Assembly: GCF_025446935.1 (NCBI RefSeq)
Contig: NZ_JAOEGN010000004.1
Span: forward strand, 62,001 to 126,000
Length of the DNA stretch: 64,000 nucleotides
Source of the DNA: Paracholeplasma vituli
GTDB lineage: Bacteria; Bacillota_I; Bacilli_A; Acholeplasmatales; UBA5453
Direction: 5' to 3'
How positions within the stretch are numbered: position 1 is the stretch's first letter; each line of letters starts with the position of its first letter. Positions 12,041 to 44,558 of the stretch are shown here, piece after piece. A program made the position numbers and the translations under genes. Below the pieces are notes generated by a model. It was not told where the DNA came from and searched no databases. It was given only the letters and a program-made list of their open reading frames with translations.

Positions 12041-12297
12041 TTTGAATAAAAATGAAATAATATAGACAAGTTAGTTTTAAATTATTGATAAATTGTTTGA
12101 ACACCTTAATATATTGATATATAGCCATTATCCGTTTGTCATGATATATGGTTAGTAAGTATACAAATTAAATAAACTATAAACTCAATTATTTCATTTG
12201 CGTAACAGAAAAGTTATAAAAATGTATTGATTTCATAATCATTTCATCGTACAATTGAATTAACAAATGAACAATTCATATTTATATATGGTGGGTT
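12041..12297 (+). other. AT-rich intergenic region upstream of the giant adhesin gene
   Basis: 257 bases without a gene. Apart from the promoter near its right end, I see a second weaker promoter-like pair (TTGAAC near 12100, TATAGC 17 bases on), repeated TATATTGATATATA-like AT stretches, and no terminator for the gene to the left. Confidence 0.5.
12227..12255 (+). promoter_or_regulatory. Promoter of the giant surface-protein locus
   Basis: TTGATT (12227-12232), a 17-base spacer and TACAAT (12250-12255), 42 bases before the ATG at 12298. GGTGGG just before the ATG is a weak ribosome site. Confidence 0.75.
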
Positions 12298-15200
12298 ATG
12301 AAAACGAGACGATTTATTAGATATAGCTGTTTTGTATTAATTTCATTTTACGCAATTTTCGGGATTCTTCGTACCGGAAGATTTTTATCTTTCCACACCG
12401 AGGAATCCCATTTTTTTTCATACAACTCAGAGTTTTTGTCTCAAGCAGGAACCAGCAGTGATCCCTATGTTATTACCTCAAGTGAAGATATGTTAACCAT
12501 CTCATCACTCACGCTAGGTGGAAATAATTTTAGTGGTAAGTATTTCGTGGTTTCAACAGGTATCGATGAGCTCGATTTAGGTGATTTCGTACCAGTCGGA
12601 ACCACAACAAGACCGTTTTTAGGGAACTTTAACGGAAATGGTGTAAGGTTTAGAGTAGCGATCGATAAAACAGCGACCGATAACGTGGGTATATTTGGGT
12701 ATATCCAAAACGGAACGATAGAAAACTTCTCGATATACGGGTCCATCAAAGGCAGAACAAACGTCGGAAGTGCGGTCGGATACCAACAAAGTGGATTGGT
12801 AAGAAACATTTATAACGAAGCGAGAATCGCCGCAGTAGGTTCAAATATTGGTGGAATAGTCGGACAGCTATATAACGGAACAGTGACGTTAACGTATAAC
12901 CGCGCAGAGATTACAGGGGTATCTAATGTCGGTGGAATCATCGGCTATACGTATACCTATACAATGGCATCATCGAGTGTAAGTCATGTCAATAATGTGA
13001 ACAATAACTACAGTTCCGGGACAGTGAGTGGAGACAGTGCAGTGGGGGGCGTAATAGGCGCAAGTTCAGCAGCGAGATACACATCCTCGACGGGAGCGAA
13101 CGCCAGAAACAACAACTACTATGACATCACAGAGATGGCGAACTACGCACAAACCAGAGCTGTAAAACCGAGCAGTTTAGCATCTGCAGAAGGGCTATCT
13201 TCTGGCGTATTCTTCAGTGGAATGAGCGGGAAGCTATCGAGTGGATTCGTATTTGAAGCGATCTCAGATGGGTTTGGATATTACCCACAACTGAGCGTAT
13301 TTTCAAACCATTCGAATGGAACGATCAAAGGGAACTCAAAAGCGAGTGTCCAAGTGGAAATCGGGGATGGATTAGGGACCTCAGATTTACCATTTTGGAT
13401 TAGAACAAAAGAAGATATCGAAGCGTTAAAGTTAAAAGTAGCGAGTGGAAACACATTTGAAGGGTTCTATTTCAAAGTGGAAGACGGCGTGGGACAATTT
13501 GATTTGGGTAATTTTACACCAATCGGGAGTGCGAGCCGACCATTCTATGGCAGTTTTAATGGAAATAACGCAGAATTCAATATAGAAGTGAATCAAAGTG
13601 GATCGAACATTGGATTGTTCGGTTATTTCGGCATCGGAACGATCGAGAATTTATCTATAAAAGGACAAATGATTGGTGGAACGTATGTCGGGGCCGTGGT
13701 CGGGACGATGGTATCAGGGATTGTAAGAAATGTGTATAACCAAGCGGATATCAGTGGGGTATCGTATGTGGGCGGGATTGTTGGGTATTTAACCAATGGA
13801 CAAGTGATTAACGCATACAATACCGGGGATATCTTAGCGAGTGGAGATATCGCAGGTGGTATCGTCGGAAGGATGTATGAAGGGCGAATCGAGCGAACCT
13901 ATAACATGGGCGAAATCATCGGCGCGAGATATGTAGGTGGGATAGTCGGGTATGTACAACAGTACCAAGCATCCACATCGAGTGTAAGTCACGTGAACGT
14001 AATGATACAAAACTATAGTGCAGGGTTAGTGAGTGGGAACGCGGAAGTAGGCGGAGTGATTGGGTATAATAACCCAGGTCGATACACCTCATCGACGCCA
14101 GCGAACGTGAGAACGCATTTGTATTATGACGTGAGTGTATTGGTGAATTACAGACAACCAAGAACGTTAAAACCGGAAGTCCAAGGTCATCCATATGGAC
14201 TAGACGGCAGTGTTTTACTATCGAAAGATCAAATGATAGCCAAAGGGCTTACAGAAGCCAATTGGTATTACGATACAAAAGAGGATAAATACGCGTATTA
14301 CCCACAATTAAGCGTATTTAGAACCCATGAAGAAGCAAGAATCTCAACCGAATCAATTGAATCGGTCAAAGTGGATATCGGGTATGGACTCGGAACGAGT
14401 GCCATTCCATTCTTGATTAAGACAGCAGAAGACATGCATAACCTATCTCAACTGGTGTTAAATGGAAACACGTATTCCGGATTCTATTTCAAAGTGGATG
14501 ACGGGATTTCAGAACTGGATTTAGGTGATTTCGTACCAGTCGGAACCACAACAAGACCGTTTTTAGGGAACTTTAACGGAAATGGTGTAAGGTTTAGAGT
14601 AGCGATCGATAAAACAGCGACCGATAACGTGGGTATATTTGGGTATATCCAAAACGGAACGATAGAAAACTTCTCGATATACGGGTCCATCAAAGGCAGA
14701 ACAAACGTCGGAAGTGCGGTCGGATACCAACAAAGTGGATTGGTAAGAAACATTTATAACGAAGCGAGAATCGCCGCAGTAGGTTCAAATATTGGTGGAA
14801 TAGTCGGACAGCTATATAACGGAACAGTGACGTTAACGTATAACCGCGCAGAGATTACAGGGGTATCTAATGTCGGTGGAATCATCGGCTATACGTATAC
14901 CTATACAATGGCATCATCGAGTGTAAGTCATGTCAATAATGTGAACAATAACTACAGTTCCGGGACAGTGAGTGGAGACAGTGCAGTGGGGGGCGTAATA
15001 GGCGCAAGTTCAGCAGCGAGATACACATCCTCGACGGGAGCGAACGCCAGAAACAACAACTACTATGACATCACAGAGATGGCGAACTACGCACAAACCA
15101 GAGCTGTAAAACCGAGCAGTTTAGCATCTGCAGAAGGGCTATCTTCTGGCGTATTCTTCAGTGGAATGAGCGGGAAGCTATCGAGTGGATTCGTATTTGA

Positions 15201-18200
15201 AGCGATCTCAGATGGGTTTGGATATTACCCACAACTGAGCGTATTTTCAAACCATTCGAATGGAACGATCAAAGGGAACTCAAAAGCGAGTGTCCAAGTG
15301 GAAATCGGGGATGGATTAGGGACCTCAGATTTACCATTTTGGATTAGAACAAAAGAAGATATCGAAGCGTTAAAGTTAAAAGTAGCGAGTGGAAACACAT
15401 TTGAAGGGTTCTATTTCAAAGTGGAAGACGGCGTGGGACAATTTGATTTGGGTAATTTTACACCAATCGGGAGTGCGAGCCGACCATTCTATGGCAGTTT
15501 TAATGGAAATAACGCAGAATTCAATATAGAAGTGAATCAAAGTGGATCGAACATTGGATTGTTCGGTTATTTCGGCATCGGAACGATCGAGAATTTATCT
15601 ATAAAAGGACAAATGATTGGTGGAACGTATGTCGGGGCCGTGGTCGGGACGATGGTATCAGGGATTGTAAGAAATGTGTATAACCAAGCGGATATCAGTG
15701 GGGTATCGTATGTGGGCGGGATTGTTGGGTATTTAACCAATGGACAAGTGATTAACGCATACAATACCGGGGATATCTTAGCGAGTGGAGATATCGCAGG
15801 TGGTATCGTCGGAAGGATGTATGAAGGGCGAATCGAGCGAACCTATAACATGGGCGAAATCATCGGCGCGAGATATGTAGGTGGGATAGTCGGGTATGTA
15901 CAACAGTACCAAGCATCCACATCGAGTGTAAGTCACGTGAACGTAATGATACAAAACTATAGTGCAGGGTTAGTGAGTGGGAACGCGGAAGTAGGCGGAG
16001 TGATTGGGTATAATAACCCAGGTCGATACACCTCATCGACGCCAGCGAACGTGAGAACGCATTTGTATTATGACGTGAGTGTATTGGTGAATTACAGACA
16101 ACCAAGAACGTTAAAACCGTCTACAGTTGTTGGTGGTCAAGGTTTAGAAAAGACCAGTTTAATTGGTAGTGGGATGACCAGTCGTGGGTTTTCAGGAACG
16201 GACTGGACATTCAAAGATATTGAAGGTTTCTATGCTTTCTACCCACAACTAAGGGTATTTTCAACCAGTTCAAGTAGTGTCGTGATGGAAGACTCGAAAG
16301 ACTCCGTTAAGACCATTCCATTCATTGGGGATGGGACTTCGAGTAGCCCTTATATCATCTCATCAGCCGCTGAAATGCGCGCATTATCCTTATCAATCTC
16401 GGGTTCTTATGACGCATTTGGGGTTTACTACTTGGTAAATAAGAACGTTACAGATATCGATTTAACTGAAAATTTCAGTCCAATCGGGTCATTAACAACA
16501 CCATTTAGAGGCCATTTTGATGGTAATTACGCGAATTTTGTATTAAATATCAACAGTCAACAATCTTACCAAGGTTTATTTGGAGTGACTTCAAGTGAGG
16601 CAGTCATTCAAAGACTTTCTGTCTCCGGACAGCTGATTGGTAGTGATCATATAGGCTCAATTGTGGGTTTGAATAAAGGTATCGTTTCAGAAGTTTATGC
16701 AACCTCAGGTATTCGTGGTAAGAATCATACAGGCGGTTTAATCGGGACCAATGAAGGCACCTTAGAAATTGGTTACTTTACTGGGGATGTGAACGCGACA
16801 CTTTCAAATATTGGGGGTATCGTCGGTACGAACCGCGGAGATATATCTCAGGTATATGCAGGCACAACCGTAATCGGGTCAACCCATATCGGTGGTGTCG
16901 CTGGCTATAATGAAGGTACGATTCAAAGTGCTTATTACGATCAAACTAAGATAGAATATTTTGAAAATTCAAATTTAAACAAACCTATTCAAGCCATAGG
17001 AAATATGGCTAATTTAAGCGATGTTAAGGGTTTAGAGAAAATCCAAATGCAGGGATTGAGTATCATTGGGTCTGGTACGTACCAATTGGATTTTGACTCG
17101 ACGTATTGGAGTGAATCCAATGCGAGCGGTATGTACACTTACTATCTCCAAATTAAAGGCTTCCAATCCAATTCACAATCGGCGATTAAGATGAAATCGA
17201 GCCAATCGGCACGTACGATTCGCTTTGCCATAGGTAATGGTACCAAAGTGAATCCATACATAATTACCAGTGAAATCGATATGAAAATATTATCGGATAT
17301 TACGAAAGAAGATACACTGACTGGTATTTATTTTAAAGTGGAAGATGGTATTACACGTCTTGATTTAACTCAAACTGGATTGGGATTCAACCCGATTGGA
17401 CCGAATAGTACGCGTCCGTTCAGAGGTCATTTCGATGGTAATAACGCGATCATTCATTTAAATTTAGCCACTTCAGTGAATTATACAGCATTATTTGGTT
17501 ATGTTGGTAATGACGCAAGTATTACCAATTTTACTGTCACCGGATCGGTTAAAGGCTTAAGTTATACCGCGGGTGCGATTGGTTATATCCAATATGGTAG
17601 AATCGAAAAAGTTTATAACAAAGCCACCATTGAAGGTACAACCTTTACTGCAGGTATTGTTGGTGATGCCAGATATTCAAACTTAAAAGAACTTTATAAT
17701 ATGGGGAATGTCAAAGGTACTGATAAAGTAGCAGGTATTTCTGGTAGTATGACGAAGTCCACACTGGAATCGGCATTCAATTTTGGTGCAATTACAGGTA
17801 ATCATTTCTTAGGTGGTATCACAGGTTACGCTGAAACAAATTCCGCAATTTCCTATGTTTATAACCGTAATAACGTGATTGGTAGTGGCAATCATGTGGG
17901 TGGTATTTTAGGTAATTTAGTCAATGGGACACTGGATAACGCCTATAGCGCGAGTATGGTTCGAGGTCTAAATGCGGGCTATATTGGTGGTATCATTGGT
18001 CGTGTGGGTGGAACAACAGTAGAAATCAACAGTTACTATGATTTATCTATCATTGAAGCTGATCTCCAAGCAAATGTCATTAAACCGATTCGTTCAATTG
18101 GGAATAAACTTGAACAATTGACTGTAAAAGGTGTTGAAAAGAACCAACTAACAGGACTTTCAATAATCAGTTCAGAATCGAATAGTACCTTATTAAAACT

Positions 18201-21200
18201 CGATGAATCGAAATGGGTATTAACAGCAGATGACGGAGTCAAAGTCCATTATCCACAACTCAAATTATTTAGTGAAGCGAATTCTGCTATAAAAGCAGAT
18301 TCATTGAGTTCTGTAAGTACATATATTTTTGCTGGAATGGGTACCGAAACAACACCTTATATCCTATTAAATGAACGCGATATGGTCCGATTATCGAACC
18401 TGGTTCAAATGGGTAACGATTTTGAAAATGTCTATTTCGTAGTTAGAAACAATTTGAGTGAAATGAACCTCACTCAAACCGGTTTAAATTATCAACCGAT
18501 TGGTACACCGATTACACCGTTTAATGGTGTATTTGATGGTAGTGGTGTCAATTTTAGATTGAGTTTAGCTGGTAATAATTACCAAGGTTTATTTGGCGTC
18601 GTAGGCGCATCCGCAACCATTTCACAGCTATCCGTCTCAGGCAGCATTACTGGAACGGAATATGTAGGCAGTATTGCCGGGTATAACAAAGGCACAATCC
18701 GTAATGTGTACTCTACAGCAACCATTAAAGGTTCGCTCTATACAGGTGGTATTTTAGGCTATCATCAAGGTACATTGGAATCTGTTTATCAAAATGGTCT
18801 TGTAGAAGGGGTTACTTATACCGGTGGTTTAATCGGATACTCAGAAGGTTTCGTTAAAGATGGCTATGTTTCAAGTAGCGTTTTTGGTGTTACGAACACT
18901 GGCGGTATCCTAGGTTATACGTCTAGTTTAACGGGTTTAGATTATTTATATTACAATAGTTCAGCTATTGAAGTTTTAGATGTTCTAGAAACCTTAAAAC
19001 CGGTTAAAGCCATCTCAAATGTGGACGATCAAACGAACATTAAAGGTGTCTTAATGAACCTATTGAGCAGTGGGGTATTCGGGGAAACAGGTATTTCTTT
19101 TTCAAATCCAACCAACTGGGTGGTATTAAAAGCCAGTGGATTTGATGCCTATTATCCTCAATTAGCCTATTTTAATAAACACAAACTATCAAAAGTCATC
19201 GAGAATTCGACCAACTCTGTACGCGTAAATCGTTTTACAGAGGGGGATGGGTCACTCCATAATCCATACATCATTCGTACCAATCTAGATATGAAAGCCA
19301 TCTCTGATTTAAGTGTGGCGAGAATGACTTTAGAAGGTAAATACTTTAGAGTTGCAGATGACATTGAAACAATCGATTTAACAGTAACTGGTCTAAACTA
19401 TCTACCGATTGGGAATGAAAACTATTATTTCCAAGGCAACTTTGATGGGAACCATACCCAATTTATCTTGAGTTTAAACCAATCCATTTATTATCAGGGT
19501 TTGTTTGGTTTTGTTGGTAACAAAGCGGTTATTCGAAATTTATCGGTCTACGGCAGTGTGTACGCGACCCGTTTTGCGGGCGGTATTGCAGGCAGAAACC
19601 GTGGATTAATTGAAAACGTCTATAATAAAGCTACGATTACTGCGAAGGACTACCATGCTGGAGGGATCGTCGGTTATAACGAAGGTATTATCAAAAATGC
19701 TTTCAATACTGGGGATGTTTCAGTAAGTGTGTACCATTATGCCGGTGGTATTACAGGGTATACTGTACGAAACACCACCGTTGAAAAAGTCTTCAACACA
19801 GGTACCATTAAAGTCGCTGGATCTTACGCTGGTGGAATCGTCGGTTATGCACAAGGCATGGTTTCCGATACATATAACGCAGGGGCTGTTTTAGGGTCAA
19901 ACTCGGGTATGATTATCGGGGTTGCAGACGGTTATGCAACTGTTTTCAATAGTTACTATAACCTCACCACCATTTTACAAACCATTCAAACACCAAAAGC
20001 GCTTAAAGCAATTTCTAATAAAGCCGATACAGAAGTCATTAAGGGTGTGTATACCTCTGAAATGACAGGAGATCAGTTACAAGGTATCAAATTTAACGCA
20101 GATATCTTTGTTTTAAAACCAAATGATGGTTTATTTGGTTATTATCCTCAACTCAAAGCATTCCTCTATAATACGACAGAACACGTCTTGAATGATTCGA
20201 TAGACGCTGTATCTGTACCTGTATTTGTGGGTGAAGGGACACTCAATCAGCCTTTCTTAATTTACTCGAGTGCCGATATGGTTGCGTTATCGAACTTAGT
20301 ATTACAACAAGTCGATACCACCGATATTCATTTCAAAGTATTTGAAGCCAATAAAACATTGGATTTGAGTCCATCGACATTGGAATTCAAACCCATTGGG
20401 TCGTTGAATGCGCCATTTAAAGGGCACTTTGATGGTAATCATGCTACTTTTAATTTAGCAATTGATTATACCCATTACGCTGCATTATTCGGTGTCGTAG
20501 AATCCACAGGTAGCATAAGTAACCTAAGTGTCAAAGGCTCAGTAAAAGGTACCGATTATGTTTCCGGTGTTGTCGCTTTCAATAAAGGTGCTGTGGAAAA
20601 CGTCCATAATGAAGCGCGTATTGAAGGTTTAAACTACGTTTCTGGTATCGCATCGGTTAATAGTGGAACGCTTGAACTTGTTACAAACAAGGGCGAAATA
20701 AAGGGACAAACCTATACCGCGGGGATTACCGCTATCAACCAAAATACAATTGAACTCGCTTACAATATGACGAATATTCAAGGTGCATCCTACACTGCAG
20801 GTGTGGTTTCTAAAAATGAAACGGATGCGCGTATGATGTTTGTATTTAATTATGGCCATTTACAAGCTTCTAACCGTTATTTAGGTGGGGTGGTTGCTGT
20901 TAACCGAGGCAGTTTAATCCATTTCTATAACCGTGGAGATTTAACGAGTCAAGAAAACTTTGTCGGTGGTGTAGTAGCCCTCAACCATGGTACGGTTCAA
21001 GACGGCTATCAAGCATCTAAAATTATGGGTATTAACGATTTAGGTGGTATCAGTGCATTAAACTTAGGTAGTATCGATTCGGTATACTATGATACTTCGC
21101 TCATCGAATACACCAAAGTATCAAGCCCTTATACAAAACCAAGTCAGGCCATCTATTCAGGTGATCAATCTGGGGACATCAAAGCCTTAACAACCGAAGA

Positions 21201-24200
21201 AATGACCTCACTTTATGCGATTGGGACAAATGAAGATCAAATGAATTTATCCATCGAATGGTCATTAAAACTCGGTAGTGATTTCATCTCTTATTATCCG
21301 GAACTCTATGTATTTAAAAATGCAGAACCCAAATACAGCAGTGATTCCTTAAAATCGATTACTAGAAATGTGTTTACAGGAGCTGGAACACTTTTAGACC
21401 CGTATTTAATCTATGATGGATACGATATGAAGACCATTGGTGATTATGTCAAGAAAGACATTGATTTCACAAATAAATACTTCAAGGTAGCAGAAGGTAT
21501 ACAAACCATTGACTTATCTGATGCAGAATTGATGTATGACCCAATTGGGACAGACCAAAGCTATTTTAATGGTACTTTTGATGGCAATAAAGCTTTATTC
21601 ACCATCATGTTTAATAATCCAAATCAAGATTACATGGGGATGTTCCATACTCTAGGTACAAAAGCATTGATCAAGAATCTAACAATTCAAGGCACAATCC
21701 ACGGCAGAAGTTACTTAGGCGGTCTCGCTTCTCGTAATATGGGTTCGATTGAGTTCGTAACAAACTTAGTCAATATTACCAGTACCACAGGTACATCAAC
21801 CGGTGGGATTGTTGCGGTCAATAGTGGAACTATAAGACAATCCGTCAACAAAGGCAATATCACTTTAAGAGGGTCTTTCGTAGGCGGGATTGCTGGTGAA
21901 AATGAAGGGACCATCGCCCTAAGTTATAACAAAGGCATCATTGATGGAGATACCAGTGTTGGTGGTATTGCGGGGATGAACACTAAAATCATTCAAACCA
22001 GCTATAATACCGAAAAAGTCACTGGGAACACGCAAATCGGTGGAATTGCAGGCGTTAACTACAACGCCATTTCTGAAAGTTATAATATGGGTTCAATTAT
22101 CGCAAAAGTGGGTATTGTTGGGGGGATTGCAGGGCTTAACCAAAGTACCACTTTACAAGCCAGCATCATCAACTCTTACAATACAGGTGCGATTCAATCT
22201 CTTGGTAATCTAGCGGGAGGATTGGTCGGCCTCATGTCTTCGGGTATGCTATCTGACTTATACAACGCAGGTAGTGTTTTTGGACTGTCTGAAGTTGGCG
22301 CCATTATCGGTCAACGCACTACAGGCACAACTGTCCGTGCTTATTATGACCTTAATATTTTAGAAAATAGTAGTTCAACCATAGGTATCAAACCAACCAA
22401 AGCAATCAGCAATATCGACAATACGACTACTCTAAAAGGTTTATATCGTGGTCAAATGGCTGGTATGAACGCAATCGGTATGTCTGTACGTCAAATGAAC
22501 TTTAGTAACCCAGCCTTATTCGCGATGACTGCATCACACGATATGTGGAGCTATTACCCACAAATTAAGGCCTTTACAACAAACTCATCCGTCGATGTTC
22601 GCAACGACTCCATGTTATCTGTTCGTGGTAAGACTTTCATTTATGGTGAAGGTACGAACGATAATCCATACATTTTGAATAGTGAATCCGATGTCATTGC
22701 GTTATCTGAAACTGTAAATAGCGGCAATGACTACCGTGGCGTTTACTTCAAAGTATCTCCTACTGTTTCTGAATTCAACTTCGTCGATGCAGAAGAACAA
22801 TATTTCTTATTCGCAATCGGAACAGAGACTGCGCCATTTAACGGTACGCTTGATGGTAGTGGTGTTAACTTTAAACTAAATATAGAGCAAAATAAGAATT
22901 ATCAAGGGCTCTTTGGTCATGTCGGTGAATATGGTCACCTCCACAGTTTCTCAGTATCTGGTACTGTATCGGGTCTAGATTACACGGGTGCGATTGCAGG
23001 GATGAACCGTGGAATCATCGAAACTGTATATAACCAAGCCAATGTCACAGGTAGAAATTATACAGGCGGATTGGTTGGTCAAACATTTGAACTCATTAAA
23101 AACGCCTATAACCGCGGTAAAGTTATCGGAAACCAATACGTCGGTGGGATTGCTGGTGGTGTCGACGGTATAATCCAAAACACGTACAATACAGGCATCA
23201 TTTATGGTAAAAATACAGTCGGTGCGCTTGCAGGTATGTTTAATTCAGGGGTCATCGAGTTTAGTTATTATGACACCCGTATTTTAAATGCATATAGCGC
23301 ACCAAAAGGCTATATTAAACCAAGTATCGCTGTTGGCACTGCATTTAATAGCGATACTGTTAAGGGCTTAGATAAGTCCTTTATGACGGGTGTAAATGCC
23401 TTAGGGACCGATGAGTTCCAAATGAATTTTATCGAAGGTACCAATTTATGGAGTGCTGCCTATAATATCGAGGCTATGCAAAACTATCCACAATTAACAC
23501 TTTTCTCAAGAGCTTCAAGCGCCCACACCAAATCCTTATCCATGGCATCCACTCAAACTGAACTTTTTGAAATCACACTAGATTATAAAGGTGCAACAGA
23601 ACAAAATACGGTATCGAAAGTCTATGTAATACCGAATGAGTATTATCAATTACCTGTACCATTTAAATTCGGTTTCGAGTTGGTGGGTTGGTATTATTTA
23701 AATAATGAAGCAACTAGAATCCAATATACACAAGCAAATGGCGAATCGATCCAAGTATATTCACACAACGATTCAATTACTTTAGAAGCTCAATACAAAG
23801 TAGCCATCCATAAAGTAGAATTCATCGATGGTAATGGAAATGTCATTGAAGAGGTACAAATATCTCATGGTGATTATGTTACTGAACCTCTTGAGATTCC
23901 AACCAAAAACCCAAGTTATGACAAGGTGTTCTTCTTCAAACAATGGCAATTTGACTTCTCAACTCGTATCACAACCTCACTTAAGATTGAAGCGACTTAT
24001 GAAGAAAAGAATCGCTACTTTAAACTTACTTATTTTGATGGAAACGACCAATTCATGGCCGATATTCTTATCGAATATGGTACCTTAGCAACCCCACTAT
24101 CCACCATTCCTGAAAAGCAATTTGAAGGCCAATCTGCTTATGAATTTGAAAAGTGGGACTATGATTTCACTAAGGAAGTATTTGAAAATGCAGAAGTTTA

Positions 24201-29094: not shown

Positions 29095-29115
29095 AGTATT
29101 ACATAGGAGATTTTT

Positions 29116-35100: not shown

Positions 35101-38100
35101 AACTATTTATTAACGTTTAACACGAATGTAGCTAAACAAACAGCGATCACAGTTCCATTTAACGTGGATGTGGTCCAATTAGCATTAACCATCGCAGATA
35201 AAGCAACTTTAGTCGACAACAACAACTTTAAGAACTACAACATTACACCTGGTCAAACCATTACGATTACATTCCAAGTACGTGCTGAAAATGGTGATCT
35301 TGGCTTACGTTATGAAATGGATGTAACACGAGAAGTGGGATCATCAAATAATACTTTAGAAGCACTAACCATCGAAATTGATGGTGTACTTATGACCTTA
35401 GACCCATCCAAACTGACTCAACGTGTAACAGTTGGTTCAAATGCGAACCTAATCAAACTAGATGGACAAATTCCGGCCACTGCAAGTGTCATTGGGTTTG
35501 GTGAATATAGTGTCAATGATAGCCCATTTGTTATTACAGTAACTGCCGAAAATGGTGAAAAGAAGAACTATATTGTACAGATAGATGTTTTAGATGAAAA
35601 CAACACAGTATCCGAAATTCGAGTGGACGGGATTGACAAACTCGCAGACTTCACCAATGAAATGCTTATTGTCAATGTACCTTTTTCGAAGACAACCTTA
35701 GATATTGTCGCGATCCCTGAAAGCGTAAAAGCAGTCATTACGGGTAATGGACAAAAGACACTCGTCGTTGGTGTGAACACATTTAAAGTATACGCAACCT
35801 CACAAATGGGTCTAAAGGGATTAGAATATACCCTTATCATCAACCGTGCGAACCCGGATTCCAACCATGCGTTTACACAAATTAAAGTCACCGATGGCAA
35901 TGAAACTTTACCATTTGTAGAAGGTCTATTCACCCCCTTGACCAAATCCTATCACGTCGTTTTAAGCCCGGAATCCAATTTAACAGCGATTGTCATTGAA
36001 GCTTCACCAAGTAATCCACTGTATTCTGTTACAGGTGTGGGTGTGAAGACTTTACAAATCGTTAAAGGTGTCATTCAAATGGAATTTGTGGTTTCAATAA
36101 CAGCCGAAAATGGCGACATCAACTCGTATACGATTTATGTTGATAAAGAAGCGAAGCCACTCCAATCGGATACCGAAATTCAATCCGTGAGTTTAATCGG
36201 CAACGGCTTTAACTATCTATCTGATTTTGATCCACTCAAAGCGCTTCAAAACAAGATCACATTGCCGTATGGTACAAACGCTGTTCAATTAATCGTTGGT
36301 TTACCTATTGGTGCGACTCTTGTTGATCAAAACAACTTGAGGATGATCTATTTCACCCCTGGACAAATCCAAACGATCGAATTCCAAGTACGTGCTGAAA
36401 ATGGCAACTTGGGTTTAAGATATCAAGTTGAAGTCGAACGCAGTTTACCACGTATCGAAAATACTTTAGAGAGCTTATATGTCATCATAGAGGGCGTCAA
36501 AACCGATTTAGATGTCAATAAACTGATTCATACCTTAACCACCAGTAGCCTTTCCTCAATTACCATTGGTGGAGATATTCCTGAAGGCGCTGTAGTCGCT
36601 GGATTTGGTACATTCGGTATTAAACAAGGCCCATTTGTCATCAGCGTTATGGCAGAAAATGGTCAAACTAAAAACTACATTATTACCATGAATGTTCAAG
36701 ATGACAATGCCTTAATGAAAGAAATTCAAATCGATTCAGTCAATCGTATCGGTGAATTTATCAATGATAAACTGACACTGGTAGTACCTTATGAAAAAAC
36801 ATCGATTAAAATGAATGGGATTGCAGAAAGTCTAGAAGCAACTGTCACAGGTAACGGCACATTTAACTTGAATGTGGGTTTAAATGCCTTCACCCTTTAC
36901 GTAACTGCAGAAAGTGGTTTAGAAGGTACATACTATGTTGTTGAAATTACCCGTGAACATGCGGATAACAATGCGTATTTGAAATCCCTAATAGTTAAAG
37001 ATGTATTAACCAATACCATATTGGATTACGCACCTGTATTCAATAAGACTGGTCTTTATTATGCGCTCGATTTAACAGCCTTACCAAGTGTCGGTGAAAT
37101 TGAGATTTTGGCGGAAGCAGATAGTCTAAAATCAGTGGTAACTGGCACAGGCATATATACTTTAAAAACACAAACTGGCGTGTCCACTGAACGTTTTACA
37201 GTTTCAGTCAAAGCTGAAGATGGGACAACCTTAACCTATGAATTAGTAGTCACGCGTAATGTGTTACCAGAAGATGATGTCACCATTACGAATTTATTCG
37301 TGATTGGGAATGATACCATAACCTACTTAGGTACCAATACCGAAAGCTTAAATACCTTCTCGAATACCACACTAAACTACACGATTACGGTGCCATTTGG
37401 ATTAAAGACCATCAATTTTGTCGCAAATAACGCCAATGGTGGTGTAGTCAGTGGCACAGGTATTTATGCATTGGATGCTGATTACACAAAACCTACGATT
37501 CTTAGTTTCTTTGTCACCTCAAAGAGTGGAAAAATCTCTGAAACCTATACTGTAACCATTGAAAAAATGGCACCGGATAGTAATAACGATCTATTGAGTT
37601 TACTCATCAATAATAAGCCATTAGAAGGCTTTAGAGCAGACACGCTTTCTTATCAACTACAACTGAATCATGAAACCAACACAACGATCGCCTTCGCTGC
37701 ATCTGCCTCGAGCACTAAAGCCAAGGTTTCCGGTAATATCGGAACATTTGATTTGTTACATGGTAAGAACACATATTATATTTACGTTGAATCTGAGGAA
37801 GGCATCGTTAAAACCTATACGGTTGTTGTAGATGCATTATCTTCACTTAACGCTTTGTTAGACTTAAGTGTTAAGAACTTTAGCATCACACCTGCCTTTA
37901 ATGCCAATACAACCAATTATCAACTTACAGTACCTTATAACCAACAAACCATTGAAATTCTGGCATCTACACATCCTTATGCAAAACTTCAAGGGACAGG
38001 GCTGAAGTCATTATCAACGGGGTCTAATGTGTTCGTTGTATACGCGGTTGCAGAAAATGGCAACATCGGAACACAGTATCAAATCACCGTAGACCGTAGT

Positions 38101-39714
38101 CAGGCTAGTAGCGATACGACATTATCCAACTTAGTCGTTAAAACGGCTAAAACAGGAGATACGATTGCATTCTCACCAGGATTTAACCCAACGACTCGAG
38201 AATACGTAATCCAAATTCCGAGTGGTACCTCACTCAATATGATTTATATTGAAGCAATCGCAAATCACAAAAACGCCATTATTAGTGGCGATGGTAATCG
38301 GATATTAAACGCACTTGTTAATGGCGAATACCACACAGTCATCCAAGTATTGGTCATGGCTGAAGATGGTTCTGTAGGGACTTATACAATTAGTATCTAC
38401 CGTTCTGTTGAATTGAATAAAGATGTCACGATAAGCAAACTTGAACTGGTTTCTAACTTAGGTATTCAATACTTAGGAACAAGTGGTGCACTTGTTGATT
38501 TTGATTACTTAATTCAAAATTACACGATTGAAGTACCCCACAATGTCACCTCAATAACACTTAATATCCAAACACTTTCAGCTACCATTTATGGTACAGG
38601 TACAAAAGTATTTGGTAGTCAAACTGAACTTATCTTTGAATTCTATTTAGTCTCTCAAGATGGCAGTACTGAAAGCAATCATTACACGATTACAGTGCGA
38701 AAACAAACAGCAAACGCCGATAATTTACTCAGTGATTTATCGGTTGACTTAAAGACCATTCAAGGTTTTAGTCCGACCCAATATGCTTATGAACTTACCA
38801 TCCCAACCGCATCAAAATCAACATTAAGCTTTGGTGCTATCGCGAATGACCCAGCTGCATCCTTATCAGGTGATTTGGGTACGAAGATTCTAACAGAGGG
38901 GAAAAATATATTCCATGTCCATGTCATCGCCCAAAATGGTACTATTCAAACCTATACCATCGTTGTGAATTATGTTCAAAGTAATGCCTTACTTTCCTCA
39001 CTACTCGTAAAACTGTCCACATCGACTATTTACGATGATACGAATGCGGTTATTTTGGAAAGCTTAACCTTTACACCAGGTGTAACCGATTATTTACTCC
39101 AAGTGGATAAATCCTTCGCATCCGCACGTGTTACTGGGTATGCGCAAGACCAAGCAGGGGCTCAAGTCATGGGCTTTGGTAACTATCAAATCGTAACCGA
39201 TGAAACCGAAATTCGCATTTTCGTGAAATCAGCGGATGGTAGTGAATCCTTGATGTATCGTGTACGACTAGTTAAGAATGCAATACCATCAGCAAACGCA
39301 CAATTGAAGTCACTATCGATTGGTGGTTATGGTATCGCATTTGATCAAAATACGTACCATTATCAAATTAAGTTAAATCCGAAAACAGATAGTTTAAACA
39401 TGAGTGCTGAAACATTTGACCCGAATGCGAAAGTAGAACTCCTTGGGTACACCAATGGCAATGCCTCGCATCAACTATCCACCTCCATATCCAATGTACC
39501 ATCTGGTGAAAATACGTTGATCATTCGCGTAACTGCCGAAAATGGTAATATCAATTACTATTATCTATCGGTTGCGAAAGAAGCACAAACCGATTACTTA
39601 TTAACGATTTTACTCGTCCTTACTGTAATGATGTGGATGGTAACGGTCGTATTCTTCTTGGTTAAGCAATCAAAATCGAAGAAGAAATCCATCTATCAAA
39701 GAAATATCATCTAG
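29116..39714 (+). CDS. Giant membrane-anchored stalk protein: cohesin-like domain plus ~34 cadherin-like repeats
   Basis: 3,532 residues; TAGGAGAT is the ribosome site and the gap from the first giant is 21 bases. An N-terminal signal peptide (hydrophobic FILGIMILLGALLL, likely cleaved near VQA-S) is followed by a ~190-residue beta-rich domain resembling cohesins, then about 34 tandem units of ~95 residues matching the cadherin-like beta-sandwich (PF12733) pattern: L-x-x-L-x-V, a GF or SF turn, TxxYxLxVP, GxG or GNG, and an AENGxxxTYTIxVxR end. A single membrane helix (about residues 3494-3516) and the basic tail KQSKSKKK close it. It is therefore a type I surface protein with its N-terminus far from the membrane. 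A structured hairpin, not a classical terminator, separates it from the next gene. Repeat count is by eye, plus or minus two. Confidence 0.85.
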   Translation: MKKTFILGIMILLGALLLIKPSQEVQASNPSTISFSMVESTTGKSRLTLAELKSAVVNTYISFDIVATAIGEPRKMSAFAGNVVWTNNKFLYNKIESAKDQYYDADFEENHDVNLWKDPFFTAQSDNASGHKVGFVGAIYSPVSPTFPDVPGYGLSETISTSGTKILKVTFRITNTNLNSLTTSDVIDFSFVMDEADSNHTAYDIISKYEYPKTTMSFSGFVTGEPITEKSADLTGISLKGIGNTEYISGFSTSTITYNPTLSYQDSLDDLTLLTTKASSTAVVDIKKNGVSMVGSTVVGPFEHNDIITVSVTDDDLTKDYIIQVAVLPPSTNNNLASLTTSSGSLSPVFAQGTTSYVLDLPYAITSTTLSATLSDSKASLKINNIVRSSLSLSNIAVGDTIVTFSVTSESLVTKIYTVTVRRQVPSSNTDLTWLNVNGENVYLDGETSFSKTLLETQTSFQLNIKPEETTVKKIEYSTNGGTSYNTIGQAVNSTSFTVSKGQQITFSIRVTAQDDTIQIYQLLVERPLSSNTEIKTLTVKEGQTTYEIAKVGSVYTYTLKDALSKELLLDVIGKETGTTFEVYKDGTLIDPLVSIDGILAGTHTYTIKVIAANGVSYTEYTFNIIKKSSEKDIIDLKLYDVGDNYADLGGLTFNSITQTYSASLPFSIKQIQLVLTASEKALITRISGITINNGGQNTINAVHNYTLFTAEMAQLVVRVTAEDGSIAEYTFTITRAAASTERSLDEFAINGQTVDGFIPGQPPISGGYGTIVLPGTTTSITVDAVAKSTLATITYNGSDNPNINLVRGVKQTITVRVTAESGMYYEYKVDVIAANTDNTISNIIIRDANGQPLALSFAPETTTYTLSVHFAISIVNIQVTTPNLSYSVVTTGADNSGNRLINTGYNKIVIFATSEAGTKGVEYTVEITRNAARTDNNLTSLTISSSGASNHGLTPNFIASQTNYDLRVDDIISGVTVSASVNPDNGASIISGNGYHPLTSGQITPIQIVVESEAGVRKTYTVNVKRANNDYALSQITIAGQTYLVSSFDINQVLQLSTAPYSDKSYLVNIILNDPNASYTVSSNYAQGVWTLSDNINELVINVRAQDGTLNPKPYIIRINRTPADVTKTLSNLEVKVGSGANMLLGFNESIFGYTLRVDRSVTNVSITPTLKSNKSTYEISPDLSTPLNLTPSNQTLYRIRVYNEAKTDFTDYTVTIIRADDTHQITGITANRGNAFTFNATTLTYDLGTVPFIIKDITFNITKPSTASIKINGYEMTFPYKLTLEQGKNVFEIQAFSEYGNSGDIYVFEIIQQAPSTDAGLVDLLVKTGSTILINEATPIANNIYKVRVDNPISFVDITYAKSNVNALVSISPNNGGTLNLGVNSFTIVVTAEDGITVKYYRIEITRGNDNNDFHDVTIDGVPLVDISTYDSLTNTYTLNSAFPFDKTTILIDAVLEDSFASLYGIGSKNLNFGTNTYSIYAVSEVGTKSTVLNIKVNRTNPNTDSKLDGLSVQGLAFDGVVFDPYLTTYTITLPTSDTRTQIQILATVNAVPGNMKKISGDVGIKTLPTTSGFSVQYVITVTAEDQSTTQYTINVLKNTTVSTDASLDSVEIDGVSIPYSSFTGNILELDPVLFSKKNIEITVKPTSDKATVSGQQGIRTLVNGINSFKFKVIAQDGVTGSTVEYEIRFVRLTASTDDTLKSLNLIHNGQSILTGFNPLTNSYTLSIDRSNPEIDLQFEVNHLGQRVTGNTGIQTLIPGIDNVLKVFVESESGSIRTYTIIVSVKDTDNTIEEIHIDGIDRLSDFNNQSLDLGSVAYAINQIQISALSGTYAVITGNGTFNLSVGFNTLKVYATSESGVKGTVFTITITRNPMDSNNKIDDLYVTDGLNTLPFDEGAFVSTTKQYTITLPKSNTLTKVTVVATPNNPNYIPTGVGEKVLQVISGVVNQTLTVSVQSEDGQVNTYTINIIREANPILSSDYQIKDAQILGKSVNYLLTFNTNVAKQTAITVPFNVDVVQLALTIADKATLVDNNNFKNYNITPGQTITITFQVRAENGDLGLRYEMDVTREVGSSNNTLEALTIEIDGVLMTLDPSKLTQRVTVGSNANLIKLDGQIPATASVIGFGEYSVNDSPFVITVTAENGEKKNYIVQIDVLDENNTVSEIRVDGIDKLADFTNEMLIVNVPFSKTTLDIVAIPESVKAVITGNGQKTLVVGVNTFKVYATSQMGLKGLEYTLIINRANPDSNHAFTQIKVTDGNETLPFVEGLFTPLTKSYHVVLSPESNLTAIVIEASPSNPLYSVTGVGVKTLQIVKGVIQMEFVVSITAENGDINSYTIYVDKEAKPLQSDTEIQSVSLIGNGFNYLSDFDPLKALQNKITLPYGTNAVQLIVGLPIGATLVDQNNLRMIYFTPGQIQTIEFQVRAENGNLGLRYQVEVERSLPRIENTLESLYVIIEGVKTDLDVNKLIHTLTTSSLSSITIGGDIPEGAVVAGFGTFGIKQGPFVISVMAENGQTKNYIITMNVQDDNALMKEIQIDSVNRIGEFINDKLTLVVPYEKTSIKMNGIAESLEATVTGNGTFNLNVGLNAFTLYVTAESGLEGTYYVVEITREHADNNAYLKSLIVKDVLTNTILDYAPVFNKTGLYYALDLTALPSVGEIEILAEADSLKSVVTGTGIYTLKTQTGVSTERFTVSVKAEDGTTLTYELVVTRNVLPEDDVTITNLFVIGNDTITYLGTNTESLNTFSNTTLNYTITVPFGLKTINFVANNANGGVVSGTGIYALDADYTKPTILSFFVTSKSGKISETYTVTIEKMAPDSNNDLLSLLINNKPLEGFRADTLSYQLQLNHETNTTIAFAASASSTKAKVSGNIGTFDLLHGKNTYYIYVESEEGIVKTYTVVVDALSSLNALLDLSVKNFSITPAFNANTTNYQLTVPYNQQTIEILASTHPYAKLQGTGLKSLSTGSNVFVVYAVAENGNIGTQYQITVDRSQASSDTTLSNLVVKTAKTGDTIAFSPGFNPTTREYVIQIPSGTSLNMIYIEAIANHKNAIISGDGNRILNALVNGEYHTVIQVLVMAEDGSVGTYTISIYRSVELNKDVTISKLELVSNLGIQYLGTSGALVDFDYLIQNYTIEVPHNVTSITLNIQTLSATIYGTGTKVFGSQTELIFEFYLVSQDGSTESNHYTITVRKQTANADNLLSDLSVDLKTIQGFSPTQYAYELTIPTASKSTLSFGAIANDPAASLSGDLGTKILTEGKNIFHVHVIAQNGTIQTYTIVVNYVQSNALLSSLLVKLSTSTIYDDTNAVILESLTFTPGVTDYLLQVDKSFASARVTGYAQDQAGAQVMGFGNYQIVTDETEIRIFVKSADGSESLMYRVRLVKNAIPSANAQLKSLSIGGYGIAFDQNTYHYQIKLNPKTDSLNMSAETFDPNAKVELLGYTNGNASHQLSTSISNVPSGENTLIIRVTAENGNINYYYLSVAKEAQTDYLLTILLVLTVMMWMVTVVFFLVKQSKSKKKSIYQRNII
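29206..29790 (+). other. Cohesin-like N-terminal domain of the stalk protein
   Basis: Residues ~31-225. A TYISFDIVA strand, then KMSAFAGNVVWTNNKFLYN (the cohesin-like stretch in which a chain like AFQ-x-x-LxYDxxxLxF is usual), a VGFVGAIYS strand, and TKILKVTFRITN followed by a VIDFSFVMD strand. Cohesins often sit at the N-terminus of PF12733 repeat proteins. The match is by pattern only, with no conserved catalytic residues to check. Confidence 0.5.
29800..39585 (+). repeat. About 34 cadherin-like beta-sandwich repeats
   Basis: Units of 90-105 residues from about residue 229 to 3485. Repeat starts read DNNLTSL, DASLDSV, NNTLEAL, DTTLSNL and similar; ends read EDGTxxTYxLxVxR. They are diverged in DNA and I saw no long exact duplicates between them. 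Some adjacent groups alternate in a longer two- to three-unit order (for example the units containing GKSVNYLLTF and GNGFNYLSDF), which points to older multi-unit duplications. Confidence 0.75.
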
Positions 39715-39755
39715 TTTCTATGCATACCGGGTGGGACCCACCCGGTTTATAGAAA
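39715..39755 (+). other. Strong two-part hairpin between the stalk gene and the GGDEF-EAL-like gene
   Basis: An inner GC-rich stem ACCGGGTG/CACCCGGT (39726-39733 with 39739-39746, loop GGACC) sits on an outer stem TTTCTAT/ATAGAAA (39715-39721 with 39749-39755), separated by a small internal loop. No T tract follows. A second ATAGAAA (39761-39767), next to the ribosome site of the following gene, could pair with the same left arm. Confidence 0.7.
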
Positions 39756-39777
39756 TTACTATAGAAAGCAGGACCCT

Positions 39778-41160
39778 ATGCAACTATTCAGTAACGCAAC
39801 AAACACACTGTTTCTCTCATTATTATTCGTAATCGTGCCCACAACATTTGTTATAGTTCTATATTTAGGGATTCGAAAGCTCAAGAAAGAACATGCCATT
39901 CAAAAATTCGATGTTTTGAATGATGTGGTCAAATTAGATGAATTCATCGAATACACAGAACATCGACTTAAAATGCACCCTGACAAATGTCATTTGCTAG
40001 GATTGCTCAGTTTAGATGATTTCGATCAACTCTATGAGCATTTGACAGAAAAACACATTCAAGCCTATCTTCAAAGTGTCGGGAAACACATCCGAATGAA
40101 TTTACCGAAAGGTGGTAAATTGTGTCAAACCAAAGAACGAGAAACATTTCTAATCTATATTCCTGTCTTGGAGGATGTACCGAACATCGCAGCCTTAGAA
40201 CGCATTCACAAAGCTTCCTCTAAACGGGCTTATTTGGATAATCAACTCAAAGTTGTCAGAGCGTCGACGTTAGTTTACACCTTAAAAACGAATGAAAATG
40301 AAAAGTTCAGTCAACTCTTTAGCCAATTAGAAGACATGCTTTATTATTGTAAACGGCAAGGTGGAAACACCCTAACAAAGTTTGACCCATCGATTGATTT
40401 ACGTTCGATGAATACCGTACGCTATAAGGAAATGAAGGATGCGATTAAAAACAAGCGCTTTGAATTCACGTTTGAACCCTTTTATGGATTCATCGATGAA
40501 AAAATTTATGGGTCCTCTGTATCCATTCATTATAACGATACATCACGTAAAGGTTTAAGCATTACCGAACTCATATTACTGCTAGAAAGTTCTAAAGATA
40601 TGGTTTGGTTTGGTAAATGGCTTATTGAAAAAGCCATTGAGCAGAGTCTAAATGTCTACAGTGCCATGCACAATGAATCCTACTACACTGTAATCCCAAT
40701 CGGTCTCCAACAGCTTGAGAGCAATGGATTTGCTCATTTTATGGAAACCCTCTGTTTAAAATATCAAATTCATCCCTCGAAATTGATTTTGGATTTAACC
40801 AATCCAAGACCGAGCTTATATCAAAATGAGTTTGATCAAAACCTACACTTACTTAAAAAAATGGGTATGGGCTTAATTATTCAAGTTGACGCCAATGAAC
40901 TCGTCTTTAAACAGCATTATCAATTGATTAAACCGACCATTTTAAAATACGATATTTCATTGATCGAACGTTTAGAATCGCAGGGTTGGATCAAGCAATT
41001 CCTCCAAGAATTTAAGAGTGTCGTCACGAATGTGACAACTAAACAACACTTAGAAATATTGAAATACTACAATATTACATACGTTCAAGGCTCTTTCTAT
41101 GGAAAGAAAATCGATGCGGATGATTTATTAAACATCATCAGCTTAAATCGTTTGTCTTAA
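39778..41160 (+). CDS. Membrane protein with degenerate GGDEF and EAL domains
   Basis: 460 residues; ribosome site AGGA five bases before the ATG. One N-terminal membrane helix (residues ~11-31), a region about 45-210 with the length and strand order of a GGDEF domain but KERETFLIYIP where RxGGDEF is expected, then about 220-455 with an EAL-domain layout. In the EAL part the key positions are lost: YGSSVSIHY for the EAL motif, IPIGLQQ for the NLS Asn, LDLTNP for ExTES, QVDANEL for the DDFGTG loop; KYDISLI matches KIDRSFI and YVQGSFYGK matches the QGYLFS end. Catalysis on c-di-GMP is therefore not expected; a nucleotide-sensing or scaffold role is possible. It follows the stalk gene by 63 bases and precedes the AAA+ gene by 25. 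Confidence 0.7.
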   Translation: MQLFSNATNTLFLSLLFVIVPTTFVIVLYLGIRKLKKEHAIQKFDVLNDVVKLDEFIEYTEHRLKMHPDKCHLLGLLSLDDFDQLYEHLTEKHIQAYLQSVGKHIRMNLPKGGKLCQTKERETFLIYIPVLEDVPNIAALERIHKASSKRAYLDNQLKVVRASTLVYTLKTNENEKFSQLFSQLEDMLYYCKRQGGNTLTKFDPSIDLRSMNTVRYKEMKDAIKNKRFEFTFEPFYGFIDEKIYGSSVSIHYNDTSRKGLSITELILLLESSKDMVWFGKWLIEKAIEQSLNVYSAMHNESYYTVIPIGLQQLESNGFAHFMETLCLKYQIHPSKLILDLTNPRPSLYQNEFDQNLHLLKKMGMGLIIQVDANELVFKQHYQLIKPTILKYDISLIERLESQGWIKQFLQEFKSVVTNVTTKQHLEILKYYNITYVQGSFYGKKIDADDLLNIISLNRLS

Positions 41161-41185
41161 GCGGTAAAGGAAAGAAAGGGTTATT

Positions 41186-42715: not shown

Positions 42716-42721
42716 TGGATC

Positions 42722-44503
42722 ATGATGAAAAGAAAATACGATATTGAGTTATTTAATGAAATTACAAGGTCTCACATTGACGAGGCGGTCGATGATACCG
42801 AGTTTCCGCACCATGTATTGGCCTCGATGGCTGACGGTGAAACTGAATTTTCATTAAAACGCTTAACCAAAACCGTCAAGTTTGATGACTTATGGATTAA
42901 AGTTATTGAAAACTACATTCCGAGTTTAATCCGAATTACAAAGAATCTTAAATCCACCTTAAGATATGATGCCGATATCATCCCGATTGAAAAAACCAAA
43001 CGGGTCGATGTCGATTCGATTAAACATTTACTAGCGAATACGCAATACATTCAAGAAATCAATGATCAGGATGAAGTGTTGCCTCAAAAACTACTCTCGA
43101 ATTTATCTGAAATTGAATATGGGATTTATGAAAATAGATTGATTGCTTCCTTAATCCAACGCTTAAAGCGTTTCGTTGAACACCGCATTCAAGCGATGAG
43201 GAATCATTTGGATTCGGTTTCACAAGGTGAATTCAATGCGACCTCAAAATTTCTATTTGGGGAGACGAAATATACCGTTAAGCTTCAAATTGTAGAAGAA
43301 TGTGATACGTTCGATGAAGAAACATTAAAGTATAACTTAGGTATCATTGAACGCGCAGAGGAACTCGACAAACATGTCAGTGCTTTATTGAATACACAGT
43401 TTGTTCAAATCATGAAGCGTTATCGCTTGGTAACGCCACCCATCATGAAAACCCAAATTATCCTAAAAAACCCTGATTATCGAAATGGGTATTTACTTTG
43501 GCTATTCTTAGACAAGAACAACCACTTTGAATTAGATTCAACGACGAATCCAACAGAAACCACATTCAAATCAAGATACCGTATGGAGATTGAACAACAA
43601 TTATTGTTATTATTTACGATGCATTTGGCGAATGAACCTACGGAATACTTAGAGAATCCAGTGAATCTAGACGATGTAACTCCAAAGAATTTATCCAGCT
43701 ATTTGCATAGCGATTCCGAATTTACAGCCGATACAGAATCTGAAATTATTCGGTATCTCGAACAGCTCACAGAATTAGAACGCAGCGAACATGATGTTAT
43801 CTTAAATGAGAATGTCGTAGAAGAAACTACGCTTTATGAGACGATTAATCCTAACTTTCCGATTGACGATGCACCAATCGAAATGGATTTGGGTGCGATG
43901 GCATCATCGATTGAGACTGCAGTTTTAGACGAAACGTTCAAAGCAGATCTTGATAACTTAAACCAAAGAAGCCTCGACGCATTGAAGGACATGGAAGACT
44001 CAAGTGCTATCGAACTGAATTTAGAGGCGTTAAACGATCAACTGATTGATTTAGCTCATAAAGCCAGTCAAATCGGTATGATTTATGAACAGGCAATCAC
44101 TTTAGAAGTAAAAGCACTTGAAGCCTACAAAGAAGCCACTCAAAAACTCATTGATCAAGCCAAAGTGGAAGCAAAAGTAACTTTAAAAGAAAAACTAAAA
44201 ACGCTTGAAAAAATGTATCAAGACAGTAAAAAAGATGCACTTAAAGCGCTGGATTTACGTTATAAGAGTGAACTGGACGCGATACGAAAACAGCTTTCTA
44301 CCAATAAGAAAAGAGCGGATGATCAGCTTTTGTTTAATGAGCGTGCTTTAAAACAAAAAGAAAAATTGCGTCTACATAACGCGAAACGCAATCTAACGGT
44401 CAAACTCGAAGATTCCAAACTCCGCCATAAGAAGAGTTTAGAAGAAAAAGTGCTCACACATAAACAAGCTCTCGTTGAAAGTCAAAGTAAAAACAAAAAA
44501 TAA
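42722..44503 (+). CDS. DUF2357-like protein with long C-terminal coiled coil
   Basis: 593 residues; ATGATG at the start, six bases after the stop of the AAA+ gene, with little Shine-Dalgarno, so translation is probably coupled. The N-terminal ~330 residues resemble DUF2357, the region found in McrC-like partners of McrB-type ATPases: a YGIYENRLIASL segment (YENR at 136-139) and later NPDYRNGYLLWLF. The middle is acidic. The last ~170 residues are a strong Lys/Glu/Leu-rich coiled coil ending KNKK. I find no PD-(D/E)xK nuclease motif or other catalytic site. It is likely the cytosolic partner of the upstream ATPase. A strong terminator follows, which marks the end of the surface locus. Confidence 0.7.
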   Translation: MMKRKYDIELFNEITRSHIDEAVDDTEFPHHVLASMADGETEFSLKRLTKTVKFDDLWIKVIENYIPSLIRITKNLKSTLRYDADIIPIEKTKRVDVDSIKHLLANTQYIQEINDQDEVLPQKLLSNLSEIEYGIYENRLIASLIQRLKRFVEHRIQAMRNHLDSVSQGEFNATSKFLFGETKYTVKLQIVEECDTFDEETLKYNLGIIERAEELDKHVSALLNTQFVQIMKRYRLVTPPIMKTQIILKNPDYRNGYLLWLFLDKNNHFELDSTTNPTETTFKSRYRMEIEQQLLLLFTMHLANEPTEYLENPVNLDDVTPKNLSSYLHSDSEFTADTESEIIRYLEQLTELERSEHDVILNENVVEETTLYETINPNFPIDDAPIEMDLGAMASSIETAVLDETFKADLDNLNQRSLDALKDMEDSSAIELNLEALNDQLIDLAHKASQIGMIYEQAITLEVKALEAYKEATQKLIDQAKVEAKVTLKEKLKTLEKMYQDSKKDALKALDLRYKSELDAIRKQLSTNKKRADDQLLFNERALKQKEKLRLHNAKRNLTVKLEDSKLRHKKSLEEKVLTHKQALVESQSKNKK

Positions 44504-44518
44504 ACCTTATACTATTAC

Positions 44519-44558
44519 AAAAAGATGGTAGTTCAGAACTTTGAACAACCATCTTTTT
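44519..44558 (+). terminator. Strong terminator ending the surface locus
   Basis: An 11-bp stem (AAAAAGATGGT with ACCATCTTTTT) plus an inner GTTC/GAAC, with Ts in the 3' arm. It can work in both directions. Confidence 0.9.

Follow-up and report, generated by a model that had tools for sequence, protein, structure and literature searches.

The five plus-strand genes at positions 12298-44503 of the window (the whole 64,000-nucleotide stretch of Paracholeplasma vituli DNA that was analysed) are, with high confidence, a real, conserved and largely undescribed unit, as judged by their parts and their linkage. We propose that this unit serves to make and operate a very long fibre on the surface of wall-less Acholeplasmatales, in that a pseudo-GGDEF-EAL scaffold and a membrane NTPase would assemble, position or pull a fibre that is built by a cohesin-dockerin joint. 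We give this reading a probability of roughly 0.55, and about an even chance to an action of the NTPase on the fibre, for which the gene neighbourhood speaks. The features are:

12298..29094, + strand: gene 1, giant exported protein of 5598 aa with a GLUG region, B-repeats and one N-terminal hydrophobic segment
28894..29052, + strand: C-terminal type I dockerin of gene 1 (Pfam Dockerin_1, family profile)
29116..39714, + strand: gene 2, giant membrane-anchored protein of 3532 aa with signal peptide, predicted cohesin, cadherin-like domains and C-terminal TM
29200..29793, + strand: predicted N-terminal cohesin-fold domain of gene 2 (AlphaFold2, Foldseek, VIA)
29830..39573, + strand: repeat region of gene 2 with about 34 cadherin-like beta-sandwich domains (PF12733)
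39589..39711, + strand: C-terminal TM and short basic cytoplasmic tail of gene 2
39712..39758, + strand: strong intergenic hairpin (-27.6 kcal/mol) without T-run, in the 63-nt gap between genes 2 and 3
39778..41160, + strand: gene 3, one-TM degenerate GGDEF-EAL protein of 460 aa
41186..42715, + strand: gene 4, one-TM McrB-like AAA+ NTPase of 509 aa
42722..44503, + strand: gene 5, McrC-like DUF2357 protein of 593 aa with a long C-terminal coiled coil
44519..44558, no strand assigned: terminator-like hairpin between convergent genes, at the downstream end of the unit

The gene order (GLUG/InlB-repeat giant, cadherin-like giant, dead GGDEF-EAL protein, McrB-like AAA, DUF2357-coiled-coil protein) was followed through 160 genomes of the order, and the phylum at large was sampled with 295 genomes. 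An AAA protein of the gene 4 type, here called type A, is present in 14 of the 160 genomes, with scores of 791-896 bits versus 770 bits and below for the next class. The carriers include A. laidlawii PG-8 (G027), A. palmae J233 (G046), A. brassicae O502 (G016) and A. oculi (G064). This arrangement of all five genes is seen in ten genomes (the window, L036, L038, L039, L043, L052, L059, L074, L075 and L076), and four further loci (L037, L077, L078 and L079) agree with this order as far as their contigs reach. Since the order recurs in other genomes, a chance adjacency is very unlikely. The neighbourhood search that the first-pass annotation had suggested as a check therefore supports its idea of one system: the type A GGDEF-EAL gene adjoins the AAA gene in 14 of 14 cases (in G144 it is split over two contigs), and both giants lie upstream in the same order wherever the contig reaches. 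That the last three genes occur mostly without giants, an outcome which the first-pass annotation had named as refuting, is true in the loose sense that the wider ATPase family mostly lacks them, but not in substance, since other surface-filament genes were present at every locus examined of the sister class, type B. No type A AAA gene was found in other orders of the 295-genome sample. The genes flanking the unit are common to one genus, where they differ from those of the window, and they differ between lineages. The trees of genes 3, 4 and 5 have a common split into two clades (support 100/100) that does not follow genus, and those of the repeat-rich giants show this split only in part.

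The collinear arrangement of the five open reading frames, with gaps of 21, 63, 25 and 6 nt, is borne out by their coordinates, and a plausible ribosome binding site precedes most of them. The good promoter that had been assigned to positions 12227-12255 did not hold up. It matches at 9 of 12 positions, and there are 50 such matches in the sequence as compared to 69 in shuffles; because such matches are at or below chance level, this one is no evidence for a promoter. In contrast to the promoter, the hairpin at 44519-44558 is real and terminator-like. The hairpin in the gap between genes 2 and 3 had been overlooked in the first-pass annotation. Hairpins lie at the same site in L037 and L039, which belong to the same genus, with conserved position and unrelated sequence; a DNA alignment gave no sequence common to these hairpins. 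Such a structure thus occurs in three genomes of the genus and is absent in the genomes of other genera. This suggests RNA processing or a differential expression of the giants versus the machine genes.

It is well supported that genes 4 and 5 together represent a nuclease-less McrB/McrC relative, composed of a membrane NTPase and a coiled-coil partner. The best match of gene 4 among solved structures is McrB of E. coli, and gene 5 scores above Pfam's cut-off for DUF2357, so that both initial family assignments stand. The Walker A (GISGTGKTS), Walker B (LDEMNLAR), NxD (NKDD) and arginine finger (DR) motifs of gene 4 are intact, as is the sensor; within the NxD motif (N350-x-D352-D353) the asparagine and both aspartates are invariant in 10 type A sequences. 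An N-terminal TM is present in all rows of the AAA comparison. NCBIfam and PHROGs provided no name for this ATPase. The DUF2357 domain and the coiled coil of gene 5 are conserved in the orthologue alignment, the latter being predicted as a helix at the C-terminus, about 166 residues long. Pfam revealed no nuclease family in gene 5, whose C-terminus is predicted to be a long helix with no PD-(D/E)xK. Foldseek recovered no McrC fold from the model of gene 5, which was of low confidence; its hits, TolC among them, were artefacts of the coiled coil.

McrB/McrC relatives are familiar as enzymes of phage defence. McrBC of E. coli shares with genes 4 and 5 the combination of an AAA domain and a DUF2357 activator, but the pair described here has no nuclease and no DNA-specificity domain and is membrane-anchored. 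The CoCoNuT type IV restriction systems are similar in possessing an NxD NTPase and a coiled-coil McrC homolog; however, the present unit contains neither HEPN nor another nuclease, and its partners are surface proteins.

Gene 1 encodes about 22 B-repeats of the InlB/Flg_new type (aa 3839-5321), and its orthologs range from at least 4421 to 6768 aa. Its sole predicted hydrophobic segment is N-terminal, and there is no C-terminal TM. The C-terminal dockerin was matched by Pfam Dockerin_1 in nine of ten orthologs, and the family profile matches solved dockerins with values of 1e-14 to 8e-9. The duplicated calcium-binding loops that characterize dockerins are found in the family; in the protein from the window, the first loop is intact and the second is degenerate, as it is throughout its clade. 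In the genomes that carry the locus, dockerin matches are almost confined to it. Gene 1 also contains a tandem duplication of 1944 bp (12568-14511 and 14512-16455, a period of 648 aa) with a 300-nt core that is 99% identical, which is either a recent expansion or an effect of the assembly.

The putative counterpart of the dockerin lies at the N-terminus of gene 2, in a domain about 200 residues long that is recognizable as a cohesin by predicted structure only, with no sequence-level match in Pfam or the PDB. An AlphaFold2 model built from ten orthologs reached a pTM of 0.75. Cohesins were the top Foldseek matches of this model (4e-6) and occupied 48 of the best 50 rows in VIA-align, with Z-scores of up to 11.3. 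The orthologous domains share just 14-27% identity with that from the window. Behind the cohesin-like domain, 23 stretches match PF12733 significantly, and the number of cadherin-like domains per protein ranges from 23 to 38 across the orthologs counted. The protein ends in a hydrophobic tripeptide, NII in the window and MII, LII, MIV, LIF, VIF or LIY elsewhere, which is kept in 12 of 13 proteins and lost only in A. oculi.

Taken from these two domain assignments, it appears probable that the dockerin of gene 1 and the predicted cohesin of gene 2 form a joint of the cellulosome type. The predicted cohesin would sit at the tip of gene 2; the unanchored gene 1 protein probably docks on its membrane-anchored neighbour, and the pair would explain how a wall-less cell holds the gene 1 protein. 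Gene 1 could also be anchored by its N-terminal hydrophobic segment, if this stays uncleaved, and docking on gene 2 would then be less necessary. As in cellulosome scaffolds, the dockerin is on one exported protein and the cohesin on a surface-anchored partner. In contrast to them, there is only one cohesin per anchor, the proteins are giant repeat proteins, and neither glycoside hydrolases or other carbohydrate-active enzymes nor cellulose-binding modules were found among the domains of genes 1 and 2. Such a lock, if true, would be a non-cellulosomal use of the joint for the assembly of giant adhesins. The pair had been missed in the first-pass annotation; we regard it as the best mechanistic clue at the locus.

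Gene 3 matches EAL (4e-20) and GGDEF (2e-7) but has lost the catalytic residues. Its earlier description as a dead GGDEF-EAL protein proved correct, the EAL catalytic residues being gone in all ten aligned type A orthologs. In these ten, with one exception, the GGDEF site has become KxAQTKxRxTF or a near form, and in the EAL domain the EAL, N, E, DD and K positions, which contact ligand and metal, are all changed. The type B GGDEF-EAL protein retains EAL and several other residues of the EAL domain. Since type B keeps more of these residues, a former sensor may have become a scaffold in type A.

The sister classes help to place the NTPase pair. Type B is separated from type A by one branch (support 76/99), and a typical type B locus carries, in this order, genes for an EAL protein, a GGDEF-EAL protein, small exported proteins, a SipW-like signal peptidase, the AAA, the DUF2357-coiled-coil protein and a signal peptidase. 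SipW-like or TasA-like genes lie within six genes at 109 of 109 type B loci, including those of uncultured Clostridia, a SipW-like signal peptidase is near the AAA at 108 of the 109, and type B loci encode small proteins with SipW-type signal motifs. The source genome itself contains a second system, of type B (L004, G000:C42, 6660-18873), with an EAL protein, a GGDEF-EAL protein, three small exported proteins, two SipW-like peptidases, the AAA and the DUF2357-coiled-coil protein. A third class (L087-L093) has the order AAA, DUF2357, AAA, followed by large one-TM proteins. In all three classes the NTPase pair is accompanied by exported or membrane proteins. Some type B variants (L047, L053, L056, L057, L062 and L137-L158) possess an extra AAA copy without a DUF2357 gene of its own, behind which lie genes for three small one-TM proteins and for a protein of roughly 2,300 aa that is weakly similar to gene 1. 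A fourth, polytopic AAA (913 aa) with a DUF2357-like partner of the zinc-ribbon type (536 aa) is located at L005, 9284-13601; this pair matches the PADLOC candidate PDC-M26A, and no surface genes were recognised alongside it.

Type B fits the description of CoCoPALM, which comprises NxD-motif McrB-like GTPases with an FtsB-like TM and coiled coil, coiled-coil McrC homologs and signal peptidases (Bell et al. 2024, PMC11090510). CoCoPALM was named there in a few sentences, with its function untested and left for later work (PMC11090510), and our literature search found nothing beyond the naming paper and its preprint. The window locus shares with CoCoPALM the NxD McrB-like NTPase with N-terminal TM, the DUF2357 coiled-coil protein and neighbouring genes for exported proteins. 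However, no signal peptidase was found in type A neighbourhoods, including that of the window locus, giants with dockerin and predicted cohesin replace the TasA-like subunits, and the GGDEF-EAL protein is a pseudo-enzyme. Since it lacks the signal peptidase, we consider the locus a variant of CoCoPALM rather than a member. The earlier statement that no system of this composition had been described therefore needs qualification: the branch to which the ATPase pair belongs already has a name (PMC11090510), and it is the variant with giants and without signal peptidase that is largely undescribed. The TasA/SipW fibres of Bacillus resemble the sister type B loci, which carry SipW-like peptidases and SipW-type signal motifs, whereas the window locus has no TasA-like gene. 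To our knowledge, the tapA-sipW-tasA operon of Bacillus includes no such NTPase pair.

In the proposed machine, the gene 1 protein would dock end to end on the gene 2 protein and give a fibre of the order of 0.1-0.2 µm. In the way that McrC acts on McrB, the DUF2357 domain of gene 5 would activate a ring of gene 4, and the coiled coil, standing in place of a nuclease, would transmit the movement. The target might be the cytoplasmic end of gene 2, with its conserved basic tail and hydrophobic C-terminus, where the fibre could be assembled, clustered, pulled or released, and the gene 3 scaffold would link the work of the NTPase to the membrane. In this scheme the ATPase pair and the GGDEF-EAL-like protein may build, retract or regulate the fibre, as the first-pass annotation suggested.

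One alternative is that the NTPase pair is an anti-phage guard of the surface, from the McrBC/CoCoNuT lineage, which would sense an attacking phage at the fibre and bring about cell arrest. The AAA domain is closest to McrB and matches PADLOC's candidate-defence profile PDC-M26A, and the systems related to it in Bell et al. 2024 serve in defence (PMC11090510). However, the best stretch of the PDC-M26A match covers only a part of the AAA domain, domain searches across the five genes found no nuclease, HEPN or methylase, and no defence genes were seen adjoining the unit within the window. Together with the linkage to surface genes at 109 of 109 type B loci and all type A loci, this makes a defence role unlikely. 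The same linkage weighs against the assumption that genes 3-5 are a module for cell shape, division or envelope stress that is merely co-transcribed with the surface proteins. Wall-less cells would need another kind of shape control, and the N-terminal part of the CoCoPALM GTPase resembles the division protein FtsB (Bell et al., PMC11090510); but Pfam gave no FtsB/DivIC match in the unit, the module is tied to surface genes where it is present, and 80 of the 160 genomes of the order yielded no module match at a strict cut-off. We therefore judge this explanation improbable as well.

There are two further alternatives. A leg-type motility or force machine like that of Mycoplasma mobile gliding, in which NTPase strokes are passed through the membrane to giant legs, would follow the same logic of giant surface proteins and an internal NTPase, and such strokes could be delivered by an AAA ring equipped with the long coiled-coil arm that is predicted for gene 5. 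The likeness to Gli349 and Gli521 (giant surface legs and an internal NTPase in a mollicute) is an analogy only, since the protein families differ and the gliding motor is F1-like; the unit showed no relation in sequence to the gliding machinery, and Peloplasma aerotolerans, a type B carrier, is described as non-motile (PMC11122141), so that gliding is a doubtful reading, too. Least probable is a LapA/LapD-like retention system, where the pseudo-GGDEF-EAL protein would read c-di-GMP and control the retention or release of the giant adhesin. Here as in LapA-LapD-LapG, a giant adhesin adjoins an inactive GGDEF-EAL membrane protein. Cyclic-di-GMP signalling probably exists in the source cell, since GGDEF is matched 20 times in its genome and the GGDEF/GGEEF motif is intact in several of these matches, and the residues retained in the type B protein also favour this idea. 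But the type A protein has lost those contacting ligand and metal, there is no periplasm, neither LapG nor any other protease gene is present in the unit, and the NTPase pair would be left unexplained.

If the fibre-machine reading is correct, this widespread branch, tied to surface-protein genes, would give the McrB/McrC NTPase family a further role beyond phage defence: the construction or movement of extracellular structures. More tentatively, one could assume a new class of surface machines, in which a membrane NTPase of the McrB/McrC type would have lost its nuclease and become a motor or assembly factor devoted to exported fibres. Such machines would exist in at least two forms (TasA/SipW-type and cohesin-dockerin giants of 2,600-6,800 aa) and extend from the Acholeplasmatales into the Clostridia. 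Since A. laidlawii and further wall-less species in culture carry the unit, the question is testable; the cell-surface organisation of these species is poorly understood.

Two other genes near the unit deserve mention. Just upstream, positions 10502-12040 encode a separate Ig-like surface protein with six PF16403 domains, which is not conserved at that place in other genomes. At 48491-53227 there is a repeat protein of 1578 aa, the N-terminal membrane part of which weakly matches Colicin_V.
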